The notes beneath the pieces were generated by a model, which saw only the letters and a program-made list of their open reading frames with translations, made no database searches and was not told the DNA's origin. A DNA stretch of 64,000 nt from assembly GCA_947484175.1 (NCBI GenBank), contig CANKOI010000005.1, forward strand, positions 1 through 64,000, given 5' to 3'. This document shows positions 17,174 through 38,044 of the stretch, piece by piece (the stretch's first letter is position 1; every line of letters starts with the position of its first letter). The translations under genes were made by a program, and so were the position numbers. The stretch is from Deltaproteobacteria bacterium (lineage in GTDB: Bacteria > Myxococcota_A > UBA796 > SXON01).

Positions 17174-17862
17174 GCCGGCGCCCACCAGCGACCGGCAGCG
17201 AAGGCGTACCGCCAGGGGGGCTCCACCCGGTCGGTGGAAGGATGTTCGGGGTCGCCCGGCAACAACACATGGAGCGTGTCACCTTCGGAGAGGAATCGCG
17301 GCATGATCGGCGGCGCGTGGCGCTCAGCGGCCAGAATGGCCTCCACCGAAGGGTAGTCGGAGATTTCCGCGAGGGTACGCAACGTGGGCGGCGCGAGCGG
17401 CAGATCCCCTCGCGCGGCGGCCTCCATCGCCTCCCGCGGCCGGAACCAGCGGCCCTGCGCGGCCTCCTGCCCATCGGCCTCTGCCGAGGCTCCCTCGGGA
17501 AGCGGCGCCACGAAGAACCACGTGTCGTACCGACGCGGCTCCACTTCGGGCGTGAGCCAATGGGACCACACCCGCATCGTCCGAAGATCCCACACGTCGC
17601 CGACCCGCAGGGCCACGTTGGCTTCCTCGTGGAGCTCGCGGGCGGCCGCCGTCCAGAACGCTTTGGGAACCCGGGCGAAGTCGCCTCCGTCGGTCGGCGC
17701 CGCAGCGTCCGCGTCGTCCACCCGACCGCCGGGAAATACCCACGCCGAGGCCATGAACCCCACCGTCCTGGCGCGCTCCATCAGCCACACTTCCGGACCG
17801 GCCTCGCCCTCACGCAGGAGCACGACGGTGGCGGCGGGGCGGAGCGGCACGGGAGGCGACAT
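17170..17862 (-). CDS. NUDIX hydrolase, NUDT7/NUDT19-like
   Basis: The ATG at 17862 begins 230 residues opening with PLRPAATVVLLREG and WVFPGGRVDDAD. The Nudix helix is recognisable as RELHEEAN (residues 75-82) but is separated from the GG by an insertion of about 25 residues, as in the eukaryotic NUDT7/NUDT19 and related bacterial acyl-CoA diphosphatases. The C-terminal part has RYDTWFFVAPLP and PPTLRTLAEIS, also seen in that subgroup. It probably cleaves a nucleoside-diphosphate-linked compound such as a CoA ester. It precedes and overlaps the subtilase gene. Confidence 0.82.
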   Translation of the reverse strand: MSPPVPLRPAATVVLLREGEAGPEVWLMERARTVGFMASAWVFPGGRVDDADAAAPTDGGDFARVPKAFWTAAARELHEEANVALRVGDVWDLRTMRVWSHWLTPEVEPRRYDTWFFVAPLPEGASAEADGQEAAQGRWFRPREAMEAAARGDLPLAPPTLRTLAEISDYPSVEAILAAERHAPPIMPRFLSEGDTLHVLLPGDPEHPSTDRVEPPWRYAFAAGRWWAPA

Positions 17863-17969
17863 GGGGCACAGTATCCGGGAGCGCGCCCCACCGGATGCGA
17901 GATGCGCCCCTGCCCACCTCACCGCAAGGTTACCGGGCCCTTGCGCATCTCCCCGACCCGTCTGCACGT

Positions 17970-18010
17970 TGGACGAGTCCACAATCTAACGATACACTTG
18001 ACGAGTCAAG
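17970..18010 (+). promoter_or_regulatory. paired palindromes (putative operators) upstream of the OmpA-fusion gene
   Basis: Two perfect palindromes share the core GACGAGTC: TGGACGAGTCCA at 17970-17981 and CTTGACGAGTCAAG at 17997-18010. Their centres are 28 bases apart, just under three helical turns. The second ends 8 bases before the ATG at 18019 and abuts the AAGGG ribosome-binding sequence, so a bound protein could block both transcription and translation. A TTGACG within the second palindrome also resembles a -35 element, but no matching -10 fits before the start. Confidence 0.5.
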
Positions 18011-18018
18011 GGTTCACC

Positions 18019-21000
18019 ATGCACCTCCTCCTCCTGAGCCTCCCCGCCTTCGCCTTCCCCACCGACGCCGAATGGGTCGCCGTCGAAACGTCGGGCGCCG
18101 CCTTGGTGGACGACTTCAACGACCATGATCGGGAAGGCACGGGCAACCCCGATGCCATCGACTGTGTGGGCGACAACGCCGTTTCCGCCCCCGCGCTCTA
18201 CTGGTACACCGACGGCACCAGCCTGTGGTTCCGGATGCGGGTCGACGACACCCCCTGGCTTACGGCCGGCACCCTCCTGCAGCCCAACGCCTGGGCCTTC
18301 CTGATCGAAACGGACGGCAACCTCGACGACTTCGAGTACTCGCTCTCCGTCACCGGGGCCTCACCGACCGTTTACCTGTACCGCAACTCCAGCGGGGACG
18401 ACGGGGCCGACGCCTCCCTGGACTCACTCGAAGGCGTGCCGACGACCACCGGCTTCCAAGCGAGCGCCGCGGGAAGCACGATCCACACCCTCGAGGACTG
18501 GTTCGTAGACGTCGAAATCGATTTGGGCGAGCTCCCCGACAGCGTGAGATCGGGCCAGACCATCCGCGTGGCCGGCATCACGGGCGACTCCTCTACGCCA
18601 GACGGCGCCGACGCCGACCTCTGCGGCACCGACGACTCCGTGGCGCTCGGCCTGCTCACCGACGCGTGGAGTGAAGAATTCGGCGTCGATCGGGATGGCG
18701 ACGGGCTCCTCGACCTCGACGAGGTGACCGCGAGCACCGATCTCGACGACGCAGACTCCGACGACGACGGACTGAGCGACGGCGATGAGGTGAACATCTG
18801 GGGGAGCGACCCGCTGCGCTGTGACACCGATGGGGACTCGCTTGTTGACGGGTTGGAGGCTGGAGTGTCCGAGCCCATCGAGGGCACCGACCTCAGCGCC
18901 GCCTGCTTCCAAGCCGATGGCGACGCCGGAGCCACCACGACCAACCCCACGCTCGCCGACACCGACAGCGGTACGGTGAACGACAACGACGAGGACCGGG
19001 ACGGCGACGGCGTGGAAGGGAGCTGGGAGACAGACCCCAACGATCCTTCCGACGACAAAGACAGTAAAGACGAACCGGACGGAATCGCCGAGGCACTGGA
19101 AGACCGCTGCGCCGGCGAAGACGAGACCGACCGCGATGGCGACGGCGTGCCCGACATCGAGGAGGGACTCGCGGACACTGACGGCGACGGCCTCCCCGAT
19201 TTCTGCGACGAGGACGATGATGGAGACGGTGTGGCGACGGTCGAGGAAGGCGCCGCCGACAGCGACGCCGACGGACTTGACGACTACGAAGACCCGGACA
19301 GCGACAACAACGGCGTGGGGGACGGCGAAGAGCCCGCGGCGGACGTGGATAGTGACTGCGATGGCCTGACGGACCGCATCGACATGGACGACTCCGACGG
19401 GGACTGCGCCGACCCTGACGGCGACCTCCTCACCAACGCCGACGAGCGGGCGTGCGGCTCCGACCCCCAGAACCCCGACACCGACGGGGATGGCCTGTTG
19501 GACAGCGACGAAAGCTGCGACGAGGATGTGGACTGCGACGAGCTCACCGACATCCTCGACGCCGACGACGCCGACACGTCTGCCTGCGACTCGCCGGGCG
19601 ACACCGGCGCGGTGGGCGACACCAGCAGCGGTCCCACGTGCGTGAACGGGCTGTGCGACGGGCATTACACCGGCGGCTCGTGCTCGACGACGGGCGGAGC
19701 GGGCGCGGGCCTGCTTGGCGCCCTCGCGGCGGCCGGCCTCGCCGCCCGGAGGCGGCGTGCGGGCCTTCGTGGCGCCGCAGTCGTGATGGGAGCAGCGGCC
19801 GTCGTGTCCTCGCCGGCGCTGGCGGAGGAGCCAAGTGTGAACGCCCAACGGTTCCACCCCACCTTCGAAAGCGGCACGTTCATGACCGTGCACGACACGA
19901 GCCCCCACGCGCCCGGCGTGGGCCTCGGTCTGGTGTTCAATCAGGCGTCCCAACCGCTGATGTACCGGTACGGCGATGGGCGCGAGCCGGTGTCCGTCCT
20001 CGGCTCGGCCACCACGCTGGAGGTCGGAGGCAGCTACGCCACGAAGCGCCTCGCCCTGACGGTGAACATGCCGTTGCACGTGGTGGACGGCGACTTCATC
20101 GACGACGGCTTTGCTCCCGGCGATCTGCGCCTCGGCGTGCTCGCGAGCATTCTCGACCGAAAGAACGCGGGCGCCGGTTTCGGCCTGTACGGCAGTCTCG
20201 GACTCCCCACCGGCGACGGCGAGCGGTTCGTGGGAACGAACTCTCCCGAGGTGATCGCCGGCCTCGCGGGGAGCTACGGCGCAACGTGGGCGATGAGCGC
20301 AAACCTCGGAATGGCCATCGGCGCTCCGGCCTCGCTCGGCGACCTCAGTTGGGGCAGCCGGGCCCAGTGGGGCCTCGGCGTGCACGTTCCGATGCGTCGG
20401 GGCATCGCGCTCATCGGGGAGCTGGAAGGGGAGTCGGCGATCGCGAACATCGACGAAGTAGGCGGAACGCCCATCGAGTGGCGCGTCGGGGCAAGCGCCC
20501 AGACCAGTCGCACGGTCCTGTTCGATGTCGGTTTCGGCACGGGCCTGACGACCGGCATCGGGGCGCCCGAATACCGTGTCACGGCCGGCCTCAAGTACCT
20601 CCCCTCCTCAGTGGCGCGGGTGACCGCCGGGCTCGACCGGGATGGCGACGGCATCGTTGACGCCACCGACCTCTGCCCCGACCAGGCGGAGGACAAGAAT
20701 GGCCAGGCCGACGAAGACGGCTGCCCTGACGGCGGTTTCGTTCCCACCCACTTCGTCGTCACCGACCTCGGCGGCAGCCGCATCGCCGGCGCCTGGCTCG
20801 AGCTGTCGAGCGGTCCCGAGACCGGACGGTGGGCCCTCCCCTCCGGCGACGTGACCCGGTCGTTGCCCCCGGGCACCTACGCCCTCCGCGTGCGTGCCCC
20901 CCATTTCACGCCCGCGGAATCGTCGCTCACCGTCCCGGCCGACGCGCCTCGGCACGAACAGGTCGTGCAGCTCTCGCCCGCAGTGGCCGGCGGCACCCTG

Positions 21001-21666
21001 ATCCTGTCGGTACAGAACGAAGCGGGGCAGCCCGTTGCAGCGCTGGTGACCATCCTCGGCGAGGGCCGCAAGTTCACCACGGCCGGAGACGGCATCGGCA
21101 CGGAGGGCGTGCCGGTGGGTGAGGTGGAGCTCTCGGTGTGGGCCGAGGGGTACCGCCCCAAGCGCGTGAAGGTCAACGTGGCTGGCGGCGAGAAACAGAA
21201 CGTATCGGTGGTGCTCGATCTGACCCGCGTGGTGGTCCTCGCCGACCGGGTGGACATCCGCGACAAGGTGTTCTTCGACCTCGACAGCGCCACGATCACG
21301 GCCGCGAGCCACAACATCCTCGACGACGTGGCGGGCGCCCTCGAAAACCACGAGGAGCTGCGGCTCGTAGAGGTGCAGGGCCACACGGACGATCAGGGTG
21401 CGGAGGAGTACAACCTCGAGTTGTCCCAACGCCGCGCCGAGGCTGTCCGCGCCTACCTGATCGGCCAAGGCATCGAGGCCGAGCGCCTCGTGGCCCGCGG
21501 CTACGGCGAGAGCCAACCCCTCGAGTTTGGCACCAGCGAGAACTCACGCGAAGTGAACCGGCGCGTCGTATTCAAGATTCTGGCCGGCCCCCCCGAGTCC
21601 GATCGCCGCCCCGGCCGCCCCGGTCGTCCGGGTCGCCCCGGACCCGGCCCAGGCCGTCGGGACTGA
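18019..21666 (+). CDS. fusion of a TSP3/MYXO-CTERM-type surface protein and an OmpA-family outer-membrane protein
   Basis: The product is 1215 residues. Order of parts: short signal (MHLLLLSLPAFA); an N-terminal beta domain to about residue 215; about ten TSP3-type calcium repeats rich in D-x-D-x-DGL (220-535); at residues 555-580 a Cys, a Gly/Ala helix and Arg cluster like a MYXO-CTERM tail; immediately after, a second hydrophobic segment ending SSPALA-EEP (about 583-604), like a signal peptide; a beta-barrel-like region (605-870); one more TSP3 unit (DRDGDGIVDATDLCPD); a carboxypeptidase-regulatory-like domain; an OmpA peptidoglycan-binding domain (about 1080-1190, with VFFDLDSATI and GHTDDQGAEEYN); and a Gly/Pro/Arg tail. 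No stop divides the halves. An internal ATG at 19786 could start the second half alone but has no clear ribosome binding site. Confidence 0.82.
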   Translation: MHLLLLSLPAFAFPTDAEWVAVETSGAALVDDFNDHDREGTGNPDAIDCVGDNAVSAPALYWYTDGTSLWFRMRVDDTPWLTAGTLLQPNAWAFLIETDGNLDDFEYSLSVTGASPTVYLYRNSSGDDGADASLDSLEGVPTTTGFQASAAGSTIHTLEDWFVDVEIDLGELPDSVRSGQTIRVAGITGDSSTPDGADADLCGTDDSVALGLLTDAWSEEFGVDRDGDGLLDLDEVTASTDLDDADSDDDGLSDGDEVNIWGSDPLRCDTDGDSLVDGLEAGVSEPIEGTDLSAACFQADGDAGATTTNPTLADTDSGTVNDNDEDRDGDGVEGSWETDPNDPSDDKDSKDEPDGIAEALEDRCAGEDETDRDGDGVPDIEEGLADTDGDGLPDFCDEDDDGDGVATVEEGAADSDADGLDDYEDPDSDNNGVGDGEEPAADVDSDCDGLTDRIDMDDSDGDCADPDGDLLTNADERACGSDPQNPDTDGDGLLDSDESCDEDVDCDELTDILDADDADTSACDSPGDTGAVGDTSSGPTCVNGLCDGHYTGGSCSTTGGAGAGLLGALAAAGLAARRRRAGLRGAAVVMGAAAVVSSPALAEEPSVNAQRFHPTFESGTFMTVHDTSPHAPGVGLGLVFNQASQPLMYRYGDGREPVSVLGSATTLEVGGSYATKRLALTVNMPLHVVDGDFIDDGFAPGDLRLGVLASILDRKNAGAGFGLYGSLGLPTGDGERFVGTNSPEVIAGLAGSYGATWAMSANLGMAIGAPASLGDLSWGSRAQWGLGVHVPMRRGIALIGELEGESAIANIDEVGGTPIEWRVGASAQTSRTVLFDVGFGTGLTTGIGAPEYRVTAGLKYLPSSVARVTAGLDRDGDGIVDATDLCPDQAEDKNGQADEDGCPDGGFVPTHFVVTDLGGSRIAGAWLELSSGPETGRWALPSGDVTRSLPPGTYALRVRAPHFTPAESSLTVPADAPRHEQVVQLSPAVAGGTLILSVQNEAGQPVAALVTILGEGRKFTTAGDGIGTEGVPVGEVELSVWAEGYRPKRVKVNVAGGEKQNVSVVLDLTRVVVLADRVDIRDKVFFDLDSATITAASHNILDDVAGALENHEELRLVEVQGHTDDQGAEEYNLELSQRRAEAVRAYLIGQGIEAERLVARGYGESQPLEFGTSENSREVNRRVVFKILAGPPESDRRPGRPGRPGRPGPGPGRRD

Positions 21667-36203: not shown

Positions 36204-38044
36204 CTACCCTGCGCCGACGGCCGGGTCGGTGACGCACAACGGGAGCACCAGCGAGCCGTAGTACCAGGTCAGGAGACCGATGATTGCGTAGGGCGCCGCC
36301 TCCAATCCCCCGGCGGGGAGCCGAGTGGGGATTTCCTCGAACGCCGCGATGCAAGAGGCGCTCTCGGTGTCGCGGGCCCGAGAGGGGGCGGTCTGCACCC
36401 ACTTCACGGCGTCGGCGCCGGTGGCGAAGCGGGCGGGAGTGCTCAGGAGGCAGCCCATGTCGCGCAAGGGGGCCAGAGTCGAGCGGGCGTACGCGGCGCT
36501 CCCCTTGGTGGCGGAGGCGTAGGCCTTGAGGAACTCTAGGGGCTGCTTGCAGTCGGGGTCGGCTACCGCAACGCGTTGGGGGTCGGCGGCGGCCACAGCG
36601 TCGAGAGCCGCACGGAGGGTGGTGGGGGTGAAGGCCAGACGGGAGACCCGCTCGCGCTCGACGGCGAGGCCCATTCCTGCGAGCTGCCTCGCCTGGCTCT
36701 CGGCCCAGGCGCGGGCGGTGCCGCCCCCCGTCGCCTTCAGCGTCGTTTCGTCGTCGTAGGCCGACACCAGCGCCGCAATCCGGGCCGCCATCGCGGCGTC
36801 GATGCCTGTCCCACGCGCCCGGATCGCCAGCGCCGACCACTCGAGCCGCCCGGAGAGCATCGCCGGGTAGTCAAAGGGGCGCTCGTCGCCCACCTTGTGC
36901 CGGGTGACAGCTTCACGGAGGGCGGCCAGTTCGGTGAGCTGCTCGGGCACGCTCATGCAGGTGGTCATCGCCGTGAGCAGGTCGGGCGACGAAGGTACGT
37001 CGAGGAGCATGGTGGGAAAGTCGTAGAACCAGCGGCCCACCGAGCTGAACAGGCCCGCGCCCTTGGACTGGATGCGGAACTCGGCGTCGCGGTGGCCGCC
37101 CGGGTCGGCCTTGGGGTCGGGGGCGTAGCCTACGCTTACGGCCAAGGCGGTGGCATCCTTCCAGAGCTGCCCGTACGCCTCCTTGCCGCCCGGGAACTTC
37201 CAGCCCACCACGTCGAGGTGGCGGCGCATCTCGGCGTAGCGTTCGCAGGCTTGGCCCTGTTCGTGGAGAACGAGGAGCCGCAGGAGGAAGGCGGCGCGGG
37301 CTTTCCGGTCGGGGGGCGAGGAGGGCTCCGGGAGCAAGGTCAGGAGCTGGTCGAGCTTCTCGGCGCGTTTGGCGGACTGTTTCTGCTGGCGGTCGCGGGC
37401 GGCGCGGTCGAGCGACTTCCGGAGGCCAAAGAGCGACTCGGCGGCGAGCGTGAACGCGGGGTCCGCAGCCAGCGCCTGGCCGTAGGCGGCCTGCGCCTCG
37501 GGGAGCTTGCCGGCGCTCTCCTTGGCGAGCCCTTCGCCGTAGGCGGCGAAGGCATCGAACGTGCGGGTGGGGGCGGTGGCGAGGATGCGCGCTAAGGCGT
37601 CGTCGGCCAGCTTCACTTCCAGGCCGTCGAGCAGTCCCGAAACCAGCCGCTTCTCCACATCCACAAAGGCCGCGACGGTGCCTTGAGCGTCGGCCGCGCG
37701 CACCACGGTGCCCGACTCCACCTTCACGAGGCGGGCATCCAACAAGAACTGCTCGCCCACCACGCTGTATCCGCCGACCACCACGAACTCGGCGCCCAGC
37801 CCCTTCCCGAACTTCTGGGCGGTGGCGGCGTCGAGAAAGGCGGACTCCGCGAGGTTCAGCTCGGCGGTGAGGGCATCGAGCTGGGAGCGCTCCACCAGCG
37901 TGAGGCCGGGGGCGTTGCTCAAGTCGGTGGTGAGCATCCCGGAGAGGGCGCGCCCGAGGCCCTCGTAGGCCGTGCCGCCGGCGCCCTGCTGAGCGGGAGC
38001 ACCGCCACGGTGGAGGCCAGCGCGGCGGAGAGGAGGAGCACCAT
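36204..38044 (-). CDS. CsgG-like secreted protein, apparently frameshifted near its N-terminus
   Basis: The main frame runs from about 37991 down to the TGA at 36204 (595 residues), opening QQGAGGTAYEGLGRALSGM then TTDLSNAPGLTLVERSQLDA, a CsgG/FlgO-like start in which a protein binds low-abundance transcript or signal is not implied; the family usually shows a secreted lipid- or membrane-associated subunit. The expected secretion signal, MVLLLSAALA then STVAVLPL, is encoded from an ATG at 38044 but in a frame offset by one base, meeting the main frame at 37991. One base appears missing there. Without the signal the first ATG is 37937. The C-terminal two thirds hold TPR-like helices (KLPEAQAAYGQALAADP) and a Cys-containing region. 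It may be a pseudogene or an assembly error. Confidence 0.65.

Follow-up and report, generated by a model that had tools for sequence, protein, structure and literature searches.

Several described bacterial systems resemble the one reported here in what they control or in how their operators are built. In the Alphaproteobacteria, CtrA and GcrA/CcrM act at scattered promoter sites to control genes for division and the envelope. MraZ regulates the division and wall genes of the dcw cluster, with direct repeats before mraZ. BlaI, MecI, and CopY use short inverted repeats with a 2-bp center (TACA-NN-TGTA) that overlap promoters. The locus analyzed in this study lies in a stretch of 64,000 nucleotides (the window) from a deltaproteobacterium of the Myxococcota, in which a candidate operator precedes a gene for a large envelope protein (the fusion gene); the candidate regulator is a protein of 82 residues. 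The operator is like those of BlaI/MecI/CopY in its 2-bp center and its promoter overlap, but a PF03965 gene is absent from the window's genome. The likeness to CtrA and GcrA/CcrM is one of analogous working only, because the motif is neither TTAA-N7-TTAA nor GANTC and the 82-residue protein is unrelated to these regulators and much smaller. As compared with MraZ, there is an inverted repeat before dispersed genes in place of direct repeats. The candidate regulator is like region 4.2 of sigma70 (PF04545; Escherichia coli RpoD) in its helix, R-E-R-[IV]-R-Q, and in the half-site TTGAC. Unlike sigma70, it is free-standing and without the other sigma regions, its site has two inverted half-sites 2 bp apart, and its domain score is below the cut-off. 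In the literature searched, there was no transcriptional regulator of division or wall genes for this part of the Myxococcota and no sigma4-like repressor. No paper in the literature searched writes TTGACNNGTCAA; one of six specific operator forms occurs in each of three papers, a BetI study and two that deal with engineering or enzymes.

Inverted Repeats Upstream of the Fusion Gene

The fusion gene (18019–21666, plus strand) encodes a 1215-residue envelope protein in which Pfam identifies TSP3 repeat, carboxypeptidase-regulatory-like, and OmpA domains. The protein comprises a TSP3-repeat part with a hydrophobic, arginine-rich, sorting-like end, followed by a second signal-like segment and the OmpA-domain part, and this joined form is retained in the full-length orthologues. 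Each of the 58 genomes searched contains a relative, and most family members have it over its full length. A divergent gene (17182–17862, minus strand) encodes a NUDIX domain according to Pfam, and nothing indicates that it is controlled by the operator.

Two inverted repeats, neither assigned to a strand, lie before the fusion gene: TGGACGAGTCCA at 17970–17981 (TGGAC-GA-GTCCA) and CTTGACGAGTCAAG at 17997–18010 (CTTGAC-GA-GTCAAG), with a center-to-center distance of 28 bp. The sequence GACGAGTC reads GACTCGTC on the opposite strand, so that arms of 5 and 6 bp flank a 2-bp spacer, GA. An earlier note on this DNA had described two perfect palindromes with the look of a dimeric repressor's paired sites; their places and spacing were correct, but the palindromes are not perfect, as the central GA is unpaired. 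The pair is not significant alone, because simulated 64-kb sequences with the same dinucleotide content held a mean of 0.8 (0–4) same-core inverted-repeat pairs each, where a pair was defined by arms of at least 5 bp, a common 8-bp core, and both repeats within 60 bp. GACGAGTC is not over-represented (3 found versus 5.4 expected). The same chance test found a second same-core pair in the window, at 37478/37535; this further pair, GGCCGTAGGCGGCC / CGCCGTAGGCGGCG with one core, occupies 37478–37548.

The upstream element TTGGAC at 17969–17974 (plus strand), from which the first repeat takes its left half, is assigned as the -35 element of the fusion-gene promoter, and TACACT at 17993–17998 (plus strand), 18 bp past it, as the -10 element, which is TATACT, TAAACT, or TAGACT in orthologues. 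A standard sigma70 consensus scan called no promoter at this site, and the assignment is based on conservation. T.G.C at 17970–17974 and TA.AC at 17993–17997 are invariant in nine genus orthologues, and the -35 region TGGAC(A/G) is also present in genera g3, g5, and g6. The candidate operator at 17997–18010 shares bases with the last part of the -10 element and takes in the expected transcription start (~18004–18006). It ends at 18010, where its AAG runs into the weak ribosome-binding site AAGGG, and the ATG is at 18019. The ribosome-binding region, GTCAAGGG...ATG, was assigned from sequence to 18010–18014 (plus strand), and its G at 18012 is invariant.

The footprint of the operator was read from 24 orthologue upstream regions (L003–L026) in gene orientation. 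All 10 genus orthologues have CTTGACNNGTCAAG, exact or with one mismatch, 8–10 bp before the start codon. Among further orthologues of the family, nine keep the operator with 1–3 mismatches, and one (G013) has an exact copy at -78. Two orthologues from other families (G047 and G029) carry the operator at -62 with a single mismatch, and it is missing before two f5 orthologues among the 24 regions. Across the nine aligned sequences, TTGAC and GTCAA never vary, and the central NN is GA, GT, GG, AG, AC, or GC; judged from the alignment, invariant arms with a freely changing center would be the mark of a dimer-binding site. In lying over core promoter elements and in being kept before orthologues, the second repeat is as expected of a repressor operator, and the pattern is also enriched over its reversed control.

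No such conservation extends to the first repeat beyond its -35 half. Its right arm is not conserved, and no orthologue keeps GTCCA at that place. Two repeats that form a paired operator with fixed spacing were therefore rejected as a model, the right arm of the first being absent in all orthologues and the frequency of such pairs being at the level of chance. We judge the first repeat to be the -35 element TTGGAC with a chance extension, the right arm of which is unique to the window's species. Only the second repeat is supported, through comparison with relatives. One operator-like site remains of the proposed pair. The absence before orthologues, or the high background, that the earlier note named as evidence against its proposal applies to the first palindrome and not to the second.

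Genome-wide Sites and Their Genes

The named relatives are metagenome bins of Myxococcota, several of them from lakes. CTTGACNNGTCAAG is found at three places in the window's genome and at two to eight in each of 11 genus genomes, whereas the reversed control is found at none. Among 54 distinct genus sites, 48 lie 0–300 bp upstream of a gene, 1 lies inside a gene, and 5 are unassigned; the count takes in locus L057, the genome of which is unconfirmed, and without it the numbers shift by one. Coding sequence makes up 86% of the total, yet only 1 of 54 sites is intragenic (binomial P about 7e-45). The -10 hexamers have fixed offsets from the palindrome, at -6 in seven promoters (the ftsW type) and at -4 in another seven (the fusion-gene type).

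Sites that are exact or have one mismatch precede the following genes of the window's genome, as identified with Pfam among other evidence: ftsW-murC, ftsQ followed by ftsZ, mreB, and the gene for an S11 D-Ala-D-Ala carboxypeptidase, as well as a divIC/ftsB-like gene, a parA-like gene (L245), and an MBOAT acyltransferase gene; ftsK is possibly a further target. Part of this list is expected to be chance, because one-mismatch sites in this genome are only twofold over control (18 versus 9). In the genus relatives, the exact motif is found before ftsW in several genomes (eight homologues are near sites), and the further targets are genes for an S11 carboxypeptidase, CHAP/NlpC-like proteins, a Glucosaminidase, an M74 endopeptidase, Pal/OmpA, a cyclophilin, and ParA. 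A Gate-domain gene and an HNH gene are targets in the genus and in other families alike. The common theme of the targets is division and envelope building. Within a single genome, the site recurs before multiple genes at more than background frequency, as would be expected for a repressor regulon. In three genomes (L082, L094, and L105), the operator is 8 bp before the start of a gene for a short coiled-coil protein that begins MS(I/L/F)(V/I)D(S/T)L...RPAGKALDP, and this gene is a conserved target.

The Candidate Regulator

One site of the window's genome lies before a gene that encodes an 82-residue helix-turn-helix protein (G000:C13:53473–53718). The scan of the genome for the core that had been suggested therefore yielded both further sites and a candidate regulator, and the location of this gene on another contig agrees with the remark that no regulator gene is adjacent to the repeats. 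The protein is single-copy and 81–99% identical in 19 of 22 family genomes. Elsewhere in the order, 30 of 36 genomes have it, and a search of 156 genomes from the rest of the phylum found none. An exact TTGACNNGTCAA lies no more than 300 bp upstream of 44 of the 49 orthologues of the gene, in six families and with a variable central NN. The promoter of the gene has TTGACA at -35 and a TATGCT-like -10 element 16 bp on. Sites and regulator co-occur across 186 genomes of the phylum (Mann-Whitney P about 6e-17). The 30 genomes with the regulator gene have 339 sites versus 16 for the control, and the 156 genomes without it, all outside the order, have 206 versus 164, or 165 versus 161 when genome G098 is left out.

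Library searches with the 82-residue protein gave weak matches only, of helix-turn-helix, sigma, and transposase type. A Sigma70_r4 match is present in 15 of 15 members of the protein's family, with an E value of 6.5e-4 for the best member, and the whole-domain PF04545 score of the protein is below the Pfam cut-off (17.9 versus 24.1 bits). The recognition helix, VSRER[IV]RQWK, is invariant at nearly all positions across the order and aligns with sigma region 4 of SigA, RpoH, and RpoD. In E. coli RpoD, residues R584, E585, and Q589 of the region 4.2 helix read the -35 box (PMC2613000, PMC8407463). The recognition-helix residues R, E, R, and Q at the -35-reading positions are invariant in the alignment of the 82-residue family, and the operator half-site, TTGAC, equals the first five bases of the -35 consensus TTGACA. 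The identity between this helix and sigma region 4 is short, which counts against the explanation that we favor. The 82-residue protein is previously undescribed and is probably the binder of TTGAC-NN-GTCAA in this order of lake Myxococcota.

Taken together, we think it likely that 17997–18010 is the operator of a regulon for division, peptidoglycan, and envelope genes and that its regulator is, most probably, the order-restricted 82-residue protein, which would act as an autoregulated repressor. The observations that bear directly on this reading are the conservation of the operator, its enrichment, its position in promoters, the set of targets, the site before the regulator gene, the co-occurrence of site and gene, and the identity of the helix; from these we infer that the 82-residue protein binds the site, forms a dimer, and represses.

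A different regulator for the same operator, for example a dimer of the GntR, MarR, or NarL type, with the 82-residue protein merely a conserved target, is unlikely but deserves consideration, as the operator data are independent of the identity of the regulator and the gene of the 82-residue protein could itself be the target of some unseen regulator. Sites are also present in five genomes in which the 82-residue protein was not found (G005, G010, G013, G025, and G041), all of them incomplete draft assemblies, although true loss of the gene is possible there. The site before the gene of the 82-residue protein is, however, the best conserved of all, extending over six families; outside the order, the sites vanish along with the gene; and the helix resembles a known reader of TTGAC. 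One other family considered, BlaI/CopY, is absent from the window's genome and from most of the genus. BlaI/MecI/CopY (PF03965) was rejected as the regulator after no match was found in 7 of 11 genus genomes, namely G000 (the window's), G001, G002, G006, G007, G008, and G010.

Proposed Mechanism of Repression

In the mechanism that we propose for the 82-residue protein, the operator, of the form (C)TTGAC-NN-GTCAA(G), would lie within the sigma70-type promoter of the fusion gene, over the start point and the last bases of the -10 element. The protein would bind as a dimer, each subunit setting a helix like that of sigma70 region 4.2 on one TTGAC half-site. At the fusion gene and ftsW, the predicted binding at -10/+1 would block RNA polymerase, and at the regulator's own gene the predicted binding across the -35 box would lead to autorepression. 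It is from this cover of -10/+1 in the first two promoters and of -35 in the third that repression is predicted; for sites between -35 and -10, or at -35, activation is possible as well.

The TTGAC of the half-site is also the -35 consensus, and many sites are located between divergent genes. The palindromes might accordingly be overlapping, opposed -35 boxes of divergent sigma70 promoters and not operators, and the promoter of the 82-residue protein's own gene, with its TTGACA and its TATGCT-like element 16 bp on, would suit such an arrangement. We regard this as very improbable. In the fusion gene's promoter, the palindrome is on -10/+1, and the -35 and -10 elements are located upstream; because the palindrome is only 8 bp before the ATG, no -10 element would fit downstream. 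At ftsW and the fusion gene alike, the -10 hexamers reach up to the palindrome or into it, and sites that serve a single gene still have both arms conserved at exactly 2 bp from each other. It is extremely improbable that the site works as RNA, in the form of a small 5'-terminal hairpin (CUUGA-CGAG-UCAAG) of the message that would hide the ribosome-binding site or stabilize the RNA. The site does adjoin the ribosome-binding region with its invariant G at 18012, but transcription is expected to start within the palindrome, and the left arm would not be transcribed because the -10 element at 17993–17998 places the start there. Elsewhere, sites precede -10 elements or lie on either strand, and the arms are invariant and not compensated. 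Chance, in the form of GC-rich sequence with two look-alike inverted repeats, can be all but dismissed, since the expectation of about 0.8 same-core pairs per window is set against family-wide conservation of 17997–18010 and 0 control matches genome-wide; the first palindrome alone is still best read as chance.

In a broader proposal, for and against which we find the balance about even, an undescribed family of dimeric mini-regulators with the -35-reading helix of sigma70 would control division (ftsZ, ftsQ, ftsW, and divIC), shape (mreB), and wall remodeling across the order by occupying palindromes that each consist of a pair of -35 half-sites. Its own -35 box would be among those occupied, and there it would compete with sigma70 for identical bases. 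If true, a repressor that reads TTGAC by a sigma-like helix would be a clean case of competition with sigma for the -35 box. This study presents an operator, its targets (ftsZ/ftsQ, ftsW-mur, mreB, divIC, and a carboxypeptidase), and one small candidate regulator side by side, so that the question of how division and wall genes are regulated in this part of the Myxococcota can be tested with a single purified protein of 82 residues and a DNA of 26 bp.

Genomes and Sites outside the Pattern

Some genomes contain sites in other settings. The family member G013 has 131 exact CTTGACNNGTCAAG sites, and its reversed control has 0; many of the sites (L037, L066–L079, L109–L119, and L328–L331) are inside genes or at convergent gene ends and could represent an uptake-like, terminator-like, or chromosome-organizing signal. 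In G055, there are 22 sites (L036, L120, and L198–L216), several of which span convergent stop codons and have extended stems (act...agt). The intragenic and gene-end sites of these two genomes are not accounted for by a promoter repressor. G098, which belongs to the same phylum outside the order and does not have the 82-residue protein, contains 41 TTGACNNGTCAA sites versus 3 for the control, likely reflecting another binder or use. Contig ends in G020 (L121, L180–L185, and L188) and G012 (L190–L197) have a multi-copy repeat that contains CTTGACGTGTCAAG and, after it, a stretch resembling (t)a(a/t)gttagcgcctatg; this mobile or repeated element carries the operator.
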